Shown: one piece after another, positions 156-6,746 of the stretch
Layout: every line of letters begins with the position of its first letter
Numbering within the stretch: position 1 is the first letter of the stretch
Source: Rhodothermus bifroesti
Lineage (GTDB): Bacteria; Bacteroidota; Rhodothermia; Rhodothermales; Rhodothermaceae
DNA: 64,000 nt
Direction of reading: 5' to 3'
Assembly: GCF_017908595.1 (NCBI RefSeq)
Contig: NZ_JAGKTL010000003.1
Coordinates: 124,001 to 188,000 of the forward strand
Notes under the pieces: model-generated
Database searches by the model: none
What the model was told of the DNA's origin: nothing
Seen by the model: the letters and a program-made list of their open reading frames with translations, nothing else
Translations under genes and position numbers: made by a program

Positions 156-185
156 AAGCCAGGGCTAGAAAGGCTCTGGCTTTTT
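156..185 (+). terminator. Factor-independent terminator after the first partial gene
   Basis: Two 11-base arms (156-166 and 172-182) pair with two G-U wobbles around a 5-base loop and run into five T residues. The T-run overlaps the stop codon of the convergent minus-strand gene, so the two transcription units share this end. Confidence 0.75.
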
Positions 186-1725
186 ATACGGTTGTTTCAG
201 GAACAATAAATCCACTCCGTTGCAATGCTGCCCATACTTCCTCGCGTGTGGCGGGAATCTTGTGACAGGCCGCTAGCACGTCCTCCGCTTGGGCTGGATA
301 AAATCCGTGGCGGTCTTCTGTGAGCCCAGCCAAGTCAAAGGGCGCTAGGGTAGCGTTTAGCGTTTCTGGCGTAGGGGTGCATCCCTGCTCGATTTCTGCC
401 AGTAGCGCTTCTTGTTGTTGGACAAACTCCTGGTGGTCGGAGAGTAGAAAGCCCGGAATGCCGGTTTCTTTTTCGAGTCGCAGGCGGGTTTCCCGGAAGC
501 TGGCGGCAGCGAAGTAGAGCTTGGAAAGCCCAGCAAAGGCCTCGGGCTGATTGAGCACGCGCCATAGGCCACCGATGAGCCGAGCTGTGTGGTCGAATTC
601 GTGCAACGTAATCGTCTGGTATTGCTCAAGGGCTTCGGTTGGTGGAGCGCCGTTGTATTGACACAGCAGCGTAGCTAAACGCCAAACGCCCAGCAGGGTC
701 AGCGGAATGCCAGTAGAAAGCAAGGGATCGAGGATGCCCACGCTACTGGGTAGCAGTGCCCAGTGCCGGCCAATCAGTTGCCGAAAGCACTCCGGGCGCT
801 CGGGCAGCATGCGAAGCGGGTAGAGCGGTTGGGCATGGGCAAGCAAGGCCTGAAGGGAAGGATACCGCGTCAGCAGCTGCCGCCAACATGCTTCAGGGTC
901 CTGATCCGGTAGGCGATCGGTGCGCAAGGTAAAGCCTAGGCTGGTGATCCCGTTATCGAAATGCAGCACCCAGGCCCAGCCTTCTTCGAGCAAGTGGTGC
1001 ACTGCGGCGTCGTCAGGCATGTAGGGCCAGGCTTCCTGAGAAGAGGCTAGCCAGGCATCGGCGCGGGCAACCTGTCGAAAATGCGAAAAGATGGCCACAC
1101 GTTCTGGAAGGTAGGGATGCGGTTCAGGCCTGAAGCCCATCTGGCGGGCCAGCCAGGCATGGGCTCCTGTGGCATCCACCACAAAGCGCGCCTCGAGCGT
1201 TTCCAAGCCCTCGGGTCCCTTAACGTTAAGCTTCATGCCGCATGCTGTTTCCGTAGCGTGTAGCGGCATGGTGTTTTCCAGGTATACGACGCCTGCGCGA
1301 CAGGCTAAATCAACAAGGTGCTTATCGAAATCCGGCCGAAACCAGTGGGTGTCGGCAATGGCGTCATGCGGCGAGGCCGCCACAAGCAGATAAGCCCGCT
1401 GCCCATGCAATGTAGGCTTCCAGCCTTGTTCAGCTTGGTGCCAGAAGAACGTAAACCCCCGTTTTTTTCCTACAGGGAGTTCGGGATAATGGGCTTTCCA
1501 GGAACCATATTTTGAGAAAGGGAGCAGCTCCGGTACCTCAAACGTGCGTGCAATGCGCTCTAGGTATAAATTGGCCAGGGGCGTCGAAGACTCGCCGATC
1601 ACAAAGCGGGGGTGTCGGCCTTTTTCAATAAGCACGACCGAGAACCCCTGTCGCTCGAGGAGCAGGGCCAGTAAAGATCCGGCAAATCCGCTCCCTAAAA
1701 TGGCAAGGTCAAACTGTTTGCTCAT
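184..1725 (-). CDS. FAD-dependent halogenase-like oxidoreductase
   Basis: Predicted 513-residue soluble flavoprotein. The N-terminus has the dinucleotide-binding motif GSGFAG followed by a beta strand ending in EKG. About 35 residues further on is GESSTP, the counterpart of the GE(S/T)xTP motif of flavin-dependent halogenases and related monooxygenases. A KRGFTFFWH stretch and a WAWVLHF segment (compare WxWxIP of tryptophan/phenolic halogenases) also fit that superfamily. Family knowledge suggests FADH2/O2 chemistry on an aromatic or alkyl substrate, by halogenation or hydroxylation. The degenerate WxWxIP motif makes true halogenation uncertain. I chose the ATG that overlaps the preceding radical SAM stop as ATGA; the frame stays open 30 codons further upstream. 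It is last in a three-gene operon. No flavin reductase is adjacent, although one lies about 58 kb away in this window. Confidence 0.8.
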   Translation of the reverse strand: MSKQFDLAILGSGFAGSLLALLLERQGFSVVLIEKGRHPRFVIGESSTPLANLYLERIARTFEVPELLPFSKYGSWKAHYPELPVGKKRGFTFFWHQAEQGWKPTLHGQRAYLLVAASPHDAIADTHWFRPDFDKHLVDLACRAGVVYLENTMPLHATETACGMKLNVKGPEGLETLEARFVVDATGAHAWLARQMGFRPEPHPYLPERVAIFSHFRQVARADAWLASSQEAWPYMPDDAAVHHLLEEGWAWVLHFDNGITSLGFTLRTDRLPDQDPEACWRQLLTRYPSLQALLAHAQPLYPLRMLPERPECFRQLIGRHWALLPSSVGILDPLLSTGIPLTLLGVWRLATLLCQYNGAPPTEALEQYQTITLHEFDHTARLIGGLWRVLNQPEAFAGLSKLYFAAASFRETRLRLEKETGIPGFLLSDHQEFVQQQEALLAEIEQGCTPTPETLNATLAPFDLAGLTEDRHGFYPAQAEDVLAACHKIPATREEVWAALQRSGFIVPETTV

Positions 1726-2690
1726 GAGGCCATGCATTGGGTGCAGGGAACGGGCGGTTCCCAGTTTTGCGTTTGGTTGATGCGCGTAAAGCGCTGTTGT
1801 TGCAGGCGGGCGCAATTTGGACAGCTATAAAAGCGATGTAAATCCCACGTATCGAGCAGGCGCACTGGTGCGGGTTGCGTGAACAGATAGGCGGCAGCGG
1901 CTTCGATTTCTTCAGGGGTAGGTGGTGCGAACTGCCCGTTTTGTTGCAGCAGCTCCATGATCCCATTGCCGGAGCGTGTTGGAATAAGCACGACGGTTTG
2001 AATCCCGTTTTCCACAGCCCATTGCACCGTACGCTGCGTCCAGTATAAGGCTTCAGCTGGCGGAAGAAACGGGGGTTTGAGCAGGATAAAAGCCCGGATG
2101 AGCAGGTGGTGCGCGTGCAGCCAAGCTACAGCCCGATCTAACTGGCCGACAGTGAGTTGTTTGTTGAGCGCTTCAAGCACGCCAGGATGGATGCATTCCA
2201 CCCCAATAGCTACTTCGAGTTGACCTTCAAGAAGCGCCTGAAACTGCAGCGTACGCGAGCCAAGCAAGGCAGGGTGCGACTCCACGATGACGCGGCGGCA
2301 TGCGCGAACGCGCTCGGCAATACCGGCATAAGCTGCAGGAGGGATGGCTAGCCGGTCGAAGAAGCTTCCGCTGTTGTAAAGCTTGACAGCGTCGGCTTTG
2401 GGCAGCTGCATGAGGGCGTGGTCGAGCTGATGGAGCAGCTGGGTTGCACTTACTGGGGCGATCGTTGTGTGCTGCCACAGGTCACACATGGTGCACGTCC
2501 ATGGGCACTCTCGGTTTGTCAGAAAAATGACATTGACCCGCTCTAGGCGACCATCGGGGGCCCGCTCCAGTTCGTGATGAAAACCCTGCGGCCGCCACGG
2601 ATCAACCGCAGCTCGAGCAGGCCGTAGCTGACGAATAAGCCGGGTGCGCTCCAGTGGCCTGAGTGTTTCCCAGTGCATGAGCTCGATCAT
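1722..2690 (-). CDS. Radical SAM protein, TIGR01210/RaSEA-like family
   Basis: Predicted 322-residue Fe-S enzyme. The cluster motif CPWTCTMC (CX3CX2C) lies near residue 63. LYNSGSFFD, VIVESHP and LLKPPFL follow in order, the pattern I associate with TIGR01210, the radical SAM family that includes the archaeosine synthase partner RaSEA. Two C-terminal CxxC pairs (CPNC and CTQC) could bind zinc or a second cluster. The substrate is unknown. In archaea RaSEA acts on a lysine-modified tRNA base, but the bacterial setting here, between an amide ligase and a flavoenzyme, points elsewhere. The start overlaps the upstream stop as ATGA and the end overlaps the next start the same way, so translation is probably coupled. 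An internal Met at residue 5 is an alternative start. Confidence 0.8.
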   Translation of the reverse strand: MIELMHWETLRPLERTRLIRQLRPARAAVDPWRPQGFHHELERAPDGRLERVNVIFLTNRECPWTCTMCDLWQHTTIAPVSATQLLHQLDHALMQLPKADAVKLYNSGSFFDRLAIPPAAYAGIAERVRACRRVIVESHPALLGSRTLQFQALLEGQLEVAIGVECIHPGVLEALNKQLTVGQLDRAVAWLHAHHLLIRAFILLKPPFLPPAEALYWTQRTVQWAVENGIQTVVLIPTRSGNGIMELLQQNGQFAPPTPEEIEAAAAYLFTQPAPVRLLDTWDLHRFYSCPNCARLQQQRFTRINQTQNWEPPVPCTQCMAS

Positions 2691-4012
2691 GCCGCAAAGA
2701 GATCTTCTACCATGCGTCGGAGCTGCCGCTCAGCGGGGATCAGGTCTCGCAAGCGAGTGGGGGGCAAGGCCCCATGCTGGAAGCGACGTTTTTCAAAAAT
2801 TGGCATTTCCATGCCCGTTATGGCTTTAACACCATGGTAGACCACGGCGCCTTTAAGCTGGTACAGCTTGGCCTTGTCGTAGCCGGTTAGCGCAGCAAAA
2901 GGAATTTTCTCGGCCACTTCAATTACACTTGGGCGCGTATACGGACTAAAGCCCGTAAATCCAAAATGCCGATTGATCGCGAACGTACGCGTATAGGCGC
3001 GACTGAGGCCGCCTGTATAGGTCAGCGAATGCTTGAGCTTATCTACTCCCCAACCCTCGTGATACAACAGCGGATTGTTGATAATGCTATAAACAGTGAG
3101 TTCGGGGTTGTGCTCGATGGGATAAGCCCGAAGGTTTTCGTCGCCTCCTTCACCGTCGAGCAAGTACTTCCAGTCGGGGTAGCGTTTGCGCAATGCCTGG
3201 GCTAAGGCATAGTGCATGGCAGCCGACTCGATATCGAGCGGCTTATAGTCTTCTACCAAGCGAACCACTTCACGCAAGTCGATCCCTGCAAGGTCCGTCT
3301 CAACGGGCTCCCAGAACAGCTCCAGTCCGAGTGTTTTTAGGAAAGTGAAGGCTTGGTCCCGGTCTGCTCCACCCCCGAGGTCGAGTGTAAAAGCTTTTAG
3401 GCGAGCAGGGTTCATGCCCAGTGACAAGAGGGTGTGGTAGGTAACCAGAAACACAGAGCCGCTGTCAATACCGCCAGAAAAGGTTACGCCAATTGGGGCA
3501 TCGGCTGGGATGCTGAGCAACCAGCGTCGGATTTCCTCCTGAAGCGCGCCAATGTAGTAGCGGCCAATGGTAGGCAGATCGGGCGGTAGGGTTTCTTGAG
3601 GAATCTCAAAAAAGCGTGTATAAGCCGGTGCCGGGTCCGGGCAGCCAATCAGCTCCAGCGTTACCACATAGTGTGCTGGGACCATCCGCGTGTAGCTGGG
3701 ATGGAACTGATCAGCAAAACCAACAGATTGCAACCATTGGTAGATTTCTTCAATCCGATGGGCTACGACCAGGGCAGGTCCATCTTCACGCTTGGCTAGA
3801 AAATAGCGCATGGGCCGATCCATTGAGCGTGCCAGCCGCACCGTCTTGCCGTCGCGTGCTACGAGCGCAAACGAACCCTCGATGGCACGAACAGCGGCTG
3901 GGTCACCCGAGCGCACGCGCGCGCGTGCTTCATCGAGGGTCATGTTTAGGATATGATTAAGTCCGGGGTCTGTCAGGTCGATCACGTCTTCGATGTAGCG
4001 GGGTCGAAGCAT
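2687..4012 (-). CDS. Asparagine-synthase-like amide ligase lacking the glutaminase cysteine
   Basis: Predicted 441-residue ATP-dependent ligase. The C-terminal two thirds carries the PP-loop FSGGIDSGS near residue 180 and a DGEGGDE motif, both typical of the asparagine synthetase synthetase domain. The N-terminal part resembles a shortened class II glutaminase fold, but the chain begins MLRPRY with no Cys at position 2, so glutamine hydrolysis is not expected. This arrangement is known from beta-lactam synthetases and other ligases that use free ammonia or an internal amine. The start chosen is the Met before the first conserved-looking strand; the frame extends 44 codons upstream through low-quality sequence. 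It is the first gene of the trio, divergent from the GH3 gene. A conventional but ammonia-dependent asparagine synthetase cannot be excluded. Confidence 0.75.
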   Translation of the reverse strand: MLRPRYIEDVIDLTDPGLNHILNMTLDEARARVRSGDPAAVRAIEGSFALVARDGKTVRLARSMDRPMRYFLAKREDGPALVVAHRIEEIYQWLQSVGFADQFHPSYTRMVPAHYVVTLELIGCPDPAPAYTRFFEIPQETLPPDLPTIGRYYIGALQEEIRRWLLSIPADAPIGVTFSGGIDSGSVFLVTYHTLLSLGMNPARLKAFTLDLGGGADRDQAFTFLKTLGLELFWEPVETDLAGIDLREVVRLVEDYKPLDIESAAMHYALAQALRKRYPDWKYLLDGEGGDENLRAYPIEHNPELTVYSIINNPLLYHEGWGVDKLKHSLTYTGGLSRAYTRTFAINRHFGFTGFSPYTRPSVIEVAEKIPFAALTGYDKAKLYQLKGAVVYHGVKAITGMEMPIFEKRRFQHGALPPTRLRDLIPAERQLRRMVEDLFAA

Positions 4013-4220
4013 GGCTGCTTGGGCAGTTGGTGGTCGGGGTCGCCAAGTTTGAGACAAAATAGTACAATTCTTCGGCTGCCTCATGCAAGGCAAAAGGGTT
4101 GGCAGCCGGTGCATCTTATGCTGAACATGTGCGGTTCGTAGCAAGCTGCCCGATAAGGACTTGCAACATCAAGTTGCGCATTGTAGCATATTGCAAGGTA
4201 AATCAAACTCAGAAAACGTT
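4013..4220. promoter_or_regulatory. Divergent promoter region between ligase trio and GH3 gene
   Basis: About 208 bases separate the two divergent starts. The part nearest the GH3 gene contains a 7-base inverted repeat, CTTGCAA at 4160-4166 and TTGCAAG at 4191-4197, with a partial TTGCG copy between. The spacing could fit a dimeric regulator operator. I see no convincing -35/-10 pair or small precursor-peptide gene in the stretch. Confidence 0.35.
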
Positions 4221-6746
4221 ATGACACGTCTTGCTACAAGTGGGCTTGTTATGCTGCTTTTGGTCGGCGTAGCCTGGGCGCAATCTGCTAAGCGTGTGGA
4301 TTCGCTGCTGCAGGCGATGACACTGGCCGAAAAGATTGCGCTGCTCCATGGGGCAATGGATCCGACCGGTGAAGCGGGGGCTGGCTACGTGCCTGGTGTG
4401 CCGCGGCTAGGTATTCCGCCTATGCGTTTGACCGACGGTCCTGCAGGTATTCGCACGCGGCATCCGGCTACGGCACTTCCGGCTCCTGTGGCGCTTGCGG
4501 CTACTTTTGAACCTGAGCTTGCCTATCGTTATGGCCGAGTCATGGGCCAAGAAGGGCGGGCACGTAAGCATGAAGTGCTTCTTTCCCCAATGGTTAACAT
4601 CATCCGCGTACCTGAAGCTGGCCGCAACTTTGAAACCTTTAGCGAAGATCCCTTGCTTTCGGCGCGCATGGTAGCAGCCGAAGTTCGCGGCATTCAGGAC
4701 GCAGGACTCATGGCCACGGTGAAGCATTATGCAGCGAACAACTTTGAAAACGACCGCATGCGGGTCAATGCAGTGGTGGATGAACGGGCGCTTCGGGAAA
4801 TCTACCTGCCCGGATTCGAAGCGGCGGTCAAGGCCGGTGTAGCCGCTGTAATGTGTGCCTACAATAAGGTTAACGGCGCCTATGCCTGCGATAATGAGCA
4901 CTTGCTTAGTCAGATCTTGCGCGAAGAGTGGGGTTTTGAGGGGTGGGTTATGACCGATTGGTTTGCCTGGCATAGCTTGGAGTCGCTTGCCAAGGGGTTG
5001 GATCAGGAAATGCCGGGCTTTACCCTGCGATTTGGTGGTTCCAATATGTCGTTAGCGCCGGCCGTGTTTGCCGATTCGCTGCTTGCAGCTGTCACTTCAG
5101 GGCGTATAGATGAGGCATTTGTAGATCGCGCCGTGCGCCGCATTCTGCTGCAGATGGCACGTTTTGGATTGCTTGAAGGCGCGGCCAGTTCTCCGGCGGA
5201 GATCGATGTTGAGGCGCATGCCGCTCTTGCCCGCGAAGTAGCCGAGGCCGGGGCAGTGCTGCTGCGCAATGAGCGCCAGACGCTGCCACTTACTGCTGAA
5301 GATCTATCCAATTTGGTTGTCGTTGGTCCGACAGCTACCCGGCCGCTTGTTGGAGGTGGGGGGAGCTCACGCGTTGTGCCTTTCCGCACTACAGCTGCCC
5401 TAACCGCCTTACAGGAACTGGCTGGGCCTTCTGCGCAGATTCGTTATGTGGCGGGCATTGACCTGGATGGGGTGGCGGTGCCTACCACTGTTTTGCAGAC
5501 ACCGGATGGCCGCCCAGGCTTGCAGCGTCAGGGCCCCGACGGCACAGTGCAGGTGGATGCTCAGCTTGACTTTACCGGCGAGCGGGCACTCCCGGCTGGT
5601 TCACAGTGGACTTGGACGGGTACGCTAACAGCCCCAGAAGCAGGCGAGTACGAACTCAAGCTGCAAACAGCTGGCGGCGTAGGCACGCTTACTGTTGACG
5701 GTCAGGTCGTGCTGCGTACAGGGATGTTTTTCAGTGATGCCAGCCTCATTCCCACAGCCGATGGTTTGGAAAATGCCACTTACCGGGTTGCTTTGCAAGC
5801 AGGTCAGCAGTTGTCGCTTGTGGTGCAGGTCTCCGGTCAACAGCCGTCGCTGCCTTTTCTCCCTGCCGAGCGCCAGCCGGTGCAGGTACGACTGGCTTGG
5901 GTGACTCCTCAGCGCCGTGCCGCTTTTTTGCAAGAAGCTGAGGAAGCAGCCCGTGCGGCCCGGGCCGCTATCGTCTTTGTACATGAAGAGGGCACCGAAG
6001 GGCGCGACCGTCCCTCACTGGCGCTGCATCCGGATCAGGATGCGATGGTCGAGACGGTAGCAGCAGCTAACCCGCGTACAACAGTGGTGCTGCATGTAGG
6101 TGCGCCAACGCTGATGCCTTGGGCCGATCGCGTTGGCGCCATCTTGCTAATGTGGTATCCTGGCCAAGAGGGAGGCTGGGCTACGGCGAACTTGCTCCTG
6201 GGGCGTGCCAACCCCGCTGGACGGTTGCCTGTGACGTTCCCGCGTCGTGCCGAGGATGCACCAACGGCAGCACCTGAACGCTATCCTGGCGTGAATCTGA
6301 CCGCCCGCTACGATGAGGGCATTTTCGTGGGGTATCGCTGGTACGATGCGCAGCGCATTACACCCCTTTTCCCCTTTGGCCATGGGCTTTCCTACACTAC
6401 GTTTGCCTATGAAAACTTGCGTGTTGAGCCCGATGGCGATGGTTTGATGGTGCGCTTTTTTGTACGCAATACAGGCGATCGCCCTGGCAGCGAGGTGTCC
6501 CAAGTGTATTTGGGACCACCAGAGCATCCACCCGTACCTATGGCACCGCTACACCTGGCAGGATTTCAGCGTGTAACCCTCGCCCCAGGTGAAGCCAAAG
6601 AGGTGTCGATGCGCATCGATAGCCGAGCGCTGTCGTACTGGTCGGTGACTGACCACGCTTGGGTAAAAGCAACCGGGCGCCGACCGGTCTACGTGGGGGC
6701 TTCCTCGCGCGATTTGCGGTTGCAGACAACCATCGAGGTGCGTTAA
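4221..6746 (+). CDS. Exported GH3 beta-glucosidase-type glycoside hydrolase
   Basis: Predicted 841-residue secreted enzyme. A signal peptide (MTRLATSGLVMLLLVGVAWAQ) selects this start over one 20 codons upstream. The GH3 N-terminal barrel follows, with KHYAANNFE and the nucleophile motif VMTDWFAW (Asp near residue 246). The GH3 C-terminal alpha/beta domain is interrupted by a PA14-like insertion around residues 420-560 and contains EEGTEGRD near residue 590, where the acid/base Glu lies in related enzymes. A fibronectin type III-like domain ends the chain. PA14-bearing GH3 enzymes usually act on beta-glucosides or related oligosaccharides released from plant or algal polymers. The location is probably periplasm or cell surface. 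No transporter or SusCD pair is adjacent, so substrate specificity is open. Confidence 0.9.
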   Translation: MTRLATSGLVMLLLVGVAWAQSAKRVDSLLQAMTLAEKIALLHGAMDPTGEAGAGYVPGVPRLGIPPMRLTDGPAGIRTRHPATALPAPVALAATFEPELAYRYGRVMGQEGRARKHEVLLSPMVNIIRVPEAGRNFETFSEDPLLSARMVAAEVRGIQDAGLMATVKHYAANNFENDRMRVNAVVDERALREIYLPGFEAAVKAGVAAVMCAYNKVNGAYACDNEHLLSQILREEWGFEGWVMTDWFAWHSLESLAKGLDQEMPGFTLRFGGSNMSLAPAVFADSLLAAVTSGRIDEAFVDRAVRRILLQMARFGLLEGAASSPAEIDVEAHAALAREVAEAGAVLLRNERQTLPLTAEDLSNLVVVGPTATRPLVGGGGSSRVVPFRTTAALTALQELAGPSAQIRYVAGIDLDGVAVPTTVLQTPDGRPGLQRQGPDGTVQVDAQLDFTGERALPAGSQWTWTGTLTAPEAGEYELKLQTAGGVGTLTVDGQVVLRTGMFFSDASLIPTADGLENATYRVALQAGQQLSLVVQVSGQQPSLPFLPAERQPVQVRLAWVTPQRRAAFLQEAEEAARAARAAIVFVHEEGTEGRDRPSLALHPDQDAMVETVAAANPRTTVVLHVGAPTLMPWADRVGAILLMWYPGQEGGWATANLLLGRANPAGRLPVTFPRRAEDAPTAAPERYPGVNLTARYDEGIFVGYRWYDAQRITPLFPFGHGLSYTTFAYENLRVEPDGDGLMVRFFVRNTGDRPGSEVSQVYLGPPEHPPVPMAPLHLAGFQRVTLAPGEAKEVSMRIDSRALSYWSVTDHAWVKATGRRPVYVGASSRDLRLQTTIEVR

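Follow-up and report, generated by a model that had tools for sequence, protein, structure and literature searches.

In archaea, RaSEA converts preQ0-Lys to archaeosine in a complex with the lysine-transferring enzyme ArcS; the lysine is attached and then processed, and its nitrogen is retained (PMC11298593). Among flavin-dependent halogenases, substitution of the catalytic lysine of PltM (K87A) yields an inactive enzyme (PMC6424973). The enediyne cassette of Streptomyces clavuligerus has the gene order DUF1702-VCBS-UnbU-PKS-thioesterase, with UnbU following the VCBS protein. We know of no explanation for the functions of UnbV and UnbU in this cassette, and the literature searched, which left out most subscription papers, names the UnbV domain only in passing.

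We analysed a 64,000-nucleotide stretch of the Rhodothermus bifroesti genome (hereafter the window) that carries a compact operon on the minus strand, encoding in order an amide ligase (LIG, 4012–2687), a radical SAM enzyme (RSAM, 2690–1722) and a halogenase-like flavoenzyme (FMO, 1725–184). The three superfamilies, and small biosynthetic operons as a class, are already familiar. The trio itself is a real, conserved biosynthetic unit that has apparently gone undescribed: no description of it was found in the same body of literature, a result that is not proof of novelty.

Operon layout and the three gene products

The features of the operon, with the basis of each assignment, are:

2687..4012, minus strand: LIG, amide ligase of asparagine-synthetase/beta-lactam-synthetase fold, 441 aa (PF00733 over cut-off, AlphaFold model)
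3461..3478, minus strand: SGGIDS ATP-pyrophosphatase loop of LIG, residues 179–184 (conservation)
3134..3157, minus strand: DG(E/D)GGDEN motif of LIG, residues 286–293 (alignment)
2687..2690, minus strand: ATGA overlap of LIG and RSAM (sequence)
1722..2690, minus strand: RSAM, RaSEA-like radical SAM enzyme, 322 aa (TIGR01210 at E 1.5e-28, below cut-off; model)
2484..2507, minus strand: CxxxCxxC [4Fe-4S]/SAM motif of RSAM, C62, C66 and C69 (conservation)
1722..1725, minus strand: ATGA overlap of RSAM and FMO (sequence)
184..1725, minus strand: FMO, predicted flavin-dependent halogenase of PltM/CtcP type, 513 aa (PltM match)
1462..1464, minus strand: K88 of FMO, paired with the catalytic Lys87 of PltM (alignment)
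709..735, minus strand: FxxPxxSxG-type motif of FMO, residues 331–339, ILDPLLSTG (sequence)

Both junctions are exact ATGA stop/start overlaps, confirming the first-pass annotation of this DNA. The ATG starts at 4012 (LIG), 2690 (RSAM) and 1725 (FMO) coincide with the points at which the alignments of close relatives begin, and the longer TTG starts in the open reading frame list (4144 and 1815) are unsupported for the same reason. A scan for promoters and terminators gave no more sites than shuffled sequence. The beta-glucosidase-like gene at window positions 4161–6746 (plus strand) is divergent from the operon and has a homologue near the trio in two sister genomes only; we therefore do not consider it part of the unit.

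LIG matches PF00733 (Asn_synthase) at 53 bits, over a cut-off of 21. Residues 4–441 of its AlphaFold model (pLDDT 82; region 291–334 modelled poorly) superimpose on residues 40–489 of beta-lactam synthetase, the top Foldseek match, with a VIA-align Z of 24.4 and an rmsd of 3.8 over 371 aligned residues; the Z scores for human asparagine synthetase (23.0) and E. coli AsnB (22.9) differ little from this. LIG residue 4 corresponds to residue 40 in beta-lactam synthetase and to residue 37 in human asparagine synthetase; the LIG chain thus begins beyond the stretch that bears the glutaminase Cys. The N-terminal glutaminase domain is truncated and lacks the catalytic Cys (position 2 is not Cys), and the score against TIGR01536, the glutamine-hydrolysing asparagine synthetase model, is 49 bits, short of the cut-off of 267. 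Having no glutaminase of its own, LIG would draw on free ammonia or on an amino acid for its nitrogen. In the ATP-pyrophosphatase loop, S179, G180, G181, D183 and S184 are invariant (68/68 rows). E288 pairs with the GEGSDE Glu of asparagine synthetase; at the position of that enzyme's catalytic Glu, the LIG family has Asp in 61 of the 68 rows and Glu in the other 7. Beta-lactam synthetase has Tyr348 at this position (that of AsnB Glu348); the LIG family has Glu or Asp there throughout (68/68). From these features we infer that LIG should be an ATP-dependent amide ligase with ammonia or an amine as co-substrate. At one other locus (L038:5835-6035), a LIG fragment covering residues 33–99 and 87% identical to the window LIG lies upstream of the intact gene and is a partial duplication.

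The best model for RSAM is TIGR01210 (RaSEA), at 100 bits against a curated cut-off of 212. Because this score is below half of the cut-off, we regard RSAM as RaSEA-like and not as RaSEA. TIGR01210 is the sole NCBIfam model matched by all 17 aligned RSAM members, five of which also match MnmL weakly; 15 of the 17 match PF04055, which the window RSAM does not. The CxxxCxxC motif is found in 72 of 73 rows, the remaining row having a gap there. Comparison of the RSAM model (pLDDT 94) by VIA-align gave queuine lyase (PDB 6p78) as the best match (Z 18.2, rmsd 3.2, 218 aligned residues) and yeast Elp123 as the second (Z 16.4, a gap of 1.8 Z), and the nearest Foldseek match was Elp3. A C-terminal Cys motif that might have bound an auxiliary cluster or zinc is unconserved, being absent in three relatives (L045, L048, L049). 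In three loci (L150, L151, L154) the RSAM match is split in two pieces, perhaps by inserts or frameshifts. Relatives of RSAM (28–30% identical) also occur on the Streptomyces plasmids pFRL5 and pFRL3 (L208 and L209:14929-16044), where they are followed by genes for a P450, serine hydroxymethyltransferase, GT9 and carbamoyltransferase and by heptose genes; RaSEA-like radical SAM enzymes are thus present in apparent actinomycete natural-product clusters as well.

FMO matches PF04820 (Trp_halogenase) at 47 bits (cut-off 21). Its nearest solved structures are PltM and CtcP, with E-values against PltM of 8.6e-40 (single sequence) and 1.2e-75 (profile). K88 is invariant (69/69 rows), and G11, G13 and G16 of the GxGxxG FAD motif are present in 69/69, 67/69 and 67/69 rows, respectively. 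The first position of the FxxPxxSxG-type motif is F in 55/69 family members. Since the invariant Lys corresponds to PltM Lys87, FMO is most probably a true halogenase. The WxWxIP hallmark of tryptophan-type flavin-dependent halogenases reads WAWVLHF in the window, without IP, and its second Trp is Tyr in 20/69 rows. The best NCBIfam model of FMO is that of QhpG, a monooxygenase, far under its cut-off, and FMO is similar to GoxB and LodB as well. QhpG, GoxB and LodB are flavoproteins whose names refer to the modification or maturation of other enzymes. The fold-level calls of the first-pass annotation were borne out for the asparagine-synthase-fold ligase (by both PF00733 and the model) and the halogenase-like flavoenzyme (by PF04820 and the PltM/CtcP match), while for the radical SAM enzyme the model named, TIGR01210, is indeed the best but "TIGR01210-type" is too strong a label.

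Conservation and descent of the trio

RSAM orthologues were collected from samples of three phyla, with strong matches in 16 of 247 Bacteroidota genomes and matches in 19 of 372 Planctomycetota and 36 of 376 Acidobacteriota genomes (of which G627 is weak). Neighbourhoods were counted over the 72 loci with RSAM, excluding the window and two weak matches. LIG lies near RSAM in 68/72 loci and FMO in 56/72, and wherever all three are together they are on one strand in the order LIG-RSAM-FMO (56/56). Spacing is mostly within a few tens of bases, and four loci have an extra gene or a 1–2 kb gap. RSAM without LIG nearby was seen at L109, L115 and L120 (Planctomycetota) and L131 (Acidobacteriota). A LIG profile search found no match in 80 genomes picked as being without a close RSAM relative (0/80).

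FMO is not near RSAM in 16 genomes and is encoded elsewhere in 13 of these (Planctomycetota 11/12, Acidobacteriota 1/3, Bacteroidota 1/1); the separated planctomycete genes have neither LIG nor RSAM alongside. At a threshold of E 1e-30 no FMO match was found in the Acidobacteriota G720 and G798 and the planctomycete G616, despite the presence of RSAM. In G123 and G250, RSAM lies near the end of its contig, and neither case is very informative on separation. That the set is retained though dispersed argues most strongly for a shared pathway. The usual setting of a halogenase is a strain-specific antibiotic cluster. This one keeps the same two partner enzymes over three phyla, even where the genes lie apart, which points to a molecule that has a lasting role in the cell.

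Pairwise distances among LIG, RSAM and FMO correlate with r of 0.92, 0.88 and 0.86 (56 rows), as is expected for co-inheritance. In the LIG and FMO trees the Rhodothermus sequences fall inside an Acidobacteriota clade (support 100/99), and the RSAM tree does not settle their placement relative to Acidobacteriota. The LIG and FMO placements suggest horizontal transfer of the unit and run counter to purely vertical descent within the phylum.

The first-pass annotation proposed a single dedicated pathway. The genes proved to be neighbours in related genomes, so the single-pathway idea survived that comparison, and a dedicated pathway is strongly supported by order and strand, by co-occurrence even when dispersed and by correlated divergence. 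That the trio serves one shared pathway is very probable. No carrier protein, transporter or precursor is conserved with it, and, on a RiPP reading, no small ORF or precursor near it stood out as conserved.

Association with UnbV and UnbU proteins

The most frequent neighbour family of the trio is UnbV_ASPIC/FG-GAP (CRTAC1), which was seen at 17 of 75 loci spread over all three phylum groups. An RnfD-like membrane protein lies beside the trio at 11 of the 75 loci, and Pfam confirmed the two families as UnbV_ASPIC and NQR2_RnfD_RnfE. A tblastn search with the RnfD-like protein led to proteins carrying the annotation enediyne biosynthesis protein UnbU. Strong UnbU matches occur in 10/16 trio genomes and 1/20 others in Bacteroidota, 11/36 and 1/40 in Acidobacteriota, and 1/19 and 0/40 in Planctomycetota, where two weaker matches were also found. 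Of the 22 genomes that have both, 11 carry UnbU no more than 10 kb from the trio (approximately 0.1 expected by chance). UnbV_ASPIC domains are present in 40/40 trio genomes (median 10.5) versus 28/40 non-trio genomes (median 2), the latter taken from the drawn samples and not phylogeny-matched. A TPR-FG-GAP-UnbV protein is found in 40/40 versus 13/40 genomes (Fisher p 1.6e-11; the p-values ignore shared ancestry, which inflates these tests).

The association is not strict: UnbU is missing from most Planctomycetota and from the four other Rhodothermus genomes, and UnbV also occurs without the trio. The first-pass annotation described the operon as isolated, with no transporter, carrier protein or precursor peptide visible; this holds within the window, but in many other genomes the trio is linked to UnbU-like membrane proteins and to UnbV_ASPIC proteins, which are secreted. 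On balance, a functional link between the trio and the UnbV/UnbU proteins is more likely than not.

The R. bifroesti genome itself has an UnbV-UnbU pair on another contig (L171, C2:489000-508000). Its neighbours include genes for a multihaem cytochrome c, two more UnbV_ASPIC proteins, an acyl-CoA dehydrogenase-like protein and FixX, FixC, EtfA and EtfB-like proteins, making this an unusual envelope redox locus. The CRTAC1-UnbU order is that of VCBS-UnbU in the S. clavuligerus cassette. Among the genes listed at this one locus, none was recognised as PKS or DUF1702. The neighbours of an UnbU-like gene in Metabacillus were uninformative, and a Sinorhizobium record carried no annotation.

Proposed pathway, alternatives and relation to described systems

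We favour, with moderate confidence, a single pathway that combines an amide ligase, a radical SAM enzyme and a halogenase, the trio forming one biosynthetic unit for a halogenated small molecule. LIG would activate a carboxylate with ATP and join it to an amine. RSAM would act next through 5'-deoxyadenosyl radical chemistry, most likely cleaving a C–N bond of the ligated group by analogy with archaeal ArcS and RaSEA and with queuine lyase; the assignment of RSAM as a C–N lyase, drawn from fold and weak sequence similarity with a structural margin of only 1.8 Z over Elp3, is tentative. FMO would then place a halogen on an electron-rich ring via hypohalous acid and its catalytic lysine, in the manner of PltM. 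The product may be used with or by UnbV_ASPIC (CRTAC1) envelope proteins and, in some lineages, the membrane protein UnbU. The amide bond, radical step and halogenation of the first-pass annotation are each backed by fold or active-site residues, while we infer their order, along with the C–N cleavage, the halide and the ring.

The alternative nearest to this scheme keeps the trio and changes the last step: FMO would be a flavin monooxygenase and the product hydroxylated instead of halogenated. The incomplete WxWxIP motif and the sub-threshold QhpG match agree with it, but the universal catalytic Lys and the PltM and CtcP structures make it unlikely. Similarity of FMO to QhpG, GoxB and LodB would also fit an enzyme-maturation role, in which the trio would supply the secreted UnbV_ASPIC beta-propeller proteins with a cofactor or prosthetic group and UnbU would handle it at the membrane. 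Such a role would account for the universal presence of UnbV_ASPIC and its TPR form in trio genomes and for the 11 of 22 adjacent UnbU genes; we nevertheless think it rather unlikely, as UnbV_ASPIC also occurs in 28/40 non-trio genomes and its TPR form in 13/40, and the S. clavuligerus cassette has UnbV-UnbU with no adjoining trio. The shared UnbV-UnbU order could instead mean that the trio belongs to a dispersed enediyne-like natural-product cluster, which we judge very unlikely, PKS and DUF1702 genes having gone unrecognised at the R. bifroesti UnbU locus.

RSAM raises a different possibility. RaSEA, Elp3 and queuine lyase, to which it is similar, are all nucleobase enzymes; the latter two head its fold lists, and the TIGR01210 and weak MnmL matches point the same way. 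The trio might accordingly modify tRNA or another RNA, LIG amidating a carboxylated base that FMO oxidises or halogenates. Domain models, however, found no RNA-binding domain in LIG, RSAM or FMO; FMO resembles a halogenase of small-phenol type and retains the catalytic Lys, RSAM is patchy in distribution (19/372 and 36/376 genomes) and its relative on the Streptomyces plasmids sits in an apparent small-molecule cluster. RNA modification is thus improbable. That three unrelated genes are neighbours by chance or for housekeeping is extremely unlikely: each superfamily is common on its own, but chance adjacency is contradicted by the constant order over three phyla and the lack of LIG in genomes without close RSAM, and FMO is kept even when dispersed.

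Returning to the halogenated small molecule, we can picture, though only as a long shot, a halogenated, amidated cofactor or redox-active metabolite serving an envelope system of UnbV_ASPIC and RnfD/NqrB-like UnbU proteins, of which the enediyne UnbV-UnbU pair would be a specialised offshoot. What is newly seen here is the genome-level link of the trio to TPR-FG-GAP-UnbV and UnbV-UnbU proteins, and this association offers a testable handle on two proteins of the enediyne cassette.

The trio shares with ArcS and RaSEA the attachment of a nitrogen-donor amino acid followed by radical SAM processing, as proposed here, and RSAM is a distant RaSEA relative. LIG, however, has the AsnB/beta-lactam synthetase fold and is not ArcS-like, RSAM scores under half of the RaSEA cut-off, and the trio adds a halogenase and is bacterial. 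Queuine lyase (6p78) is the nearest structural match of RSAM, yet the two are 14% identical and profile sequence search missed it. LIG has the fold of beta-lactam synthetase and asparagine synthetase B over almost its whole chain, together with the SGGxDS loop, but differs from both in lacking the N-terminal stretch that carries the nucleophilic Cys, and from beta-lactam synthetase in having Glu/Asp in place of Tyr348. FMO shares the FAD fold, catalytic Lys and FxxPxxSxG-type motif with PltM and the tetracycline 7-halogenase CtcP, although it is distant from them in sequence, has no PKS context and keeps two partner enzymes across phyla. The enediyne cassette UnbL-UnbV-UnbU-PKSE-TE has its UnbV-UnbU order repeated in R. 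bifroesti, and the pair lies beside the trio in 11 genomes; the S. clavuligerus cassette region differs in having no trio genes, and the L171 gene list shows no recognised PKS or DUF1702 gene.
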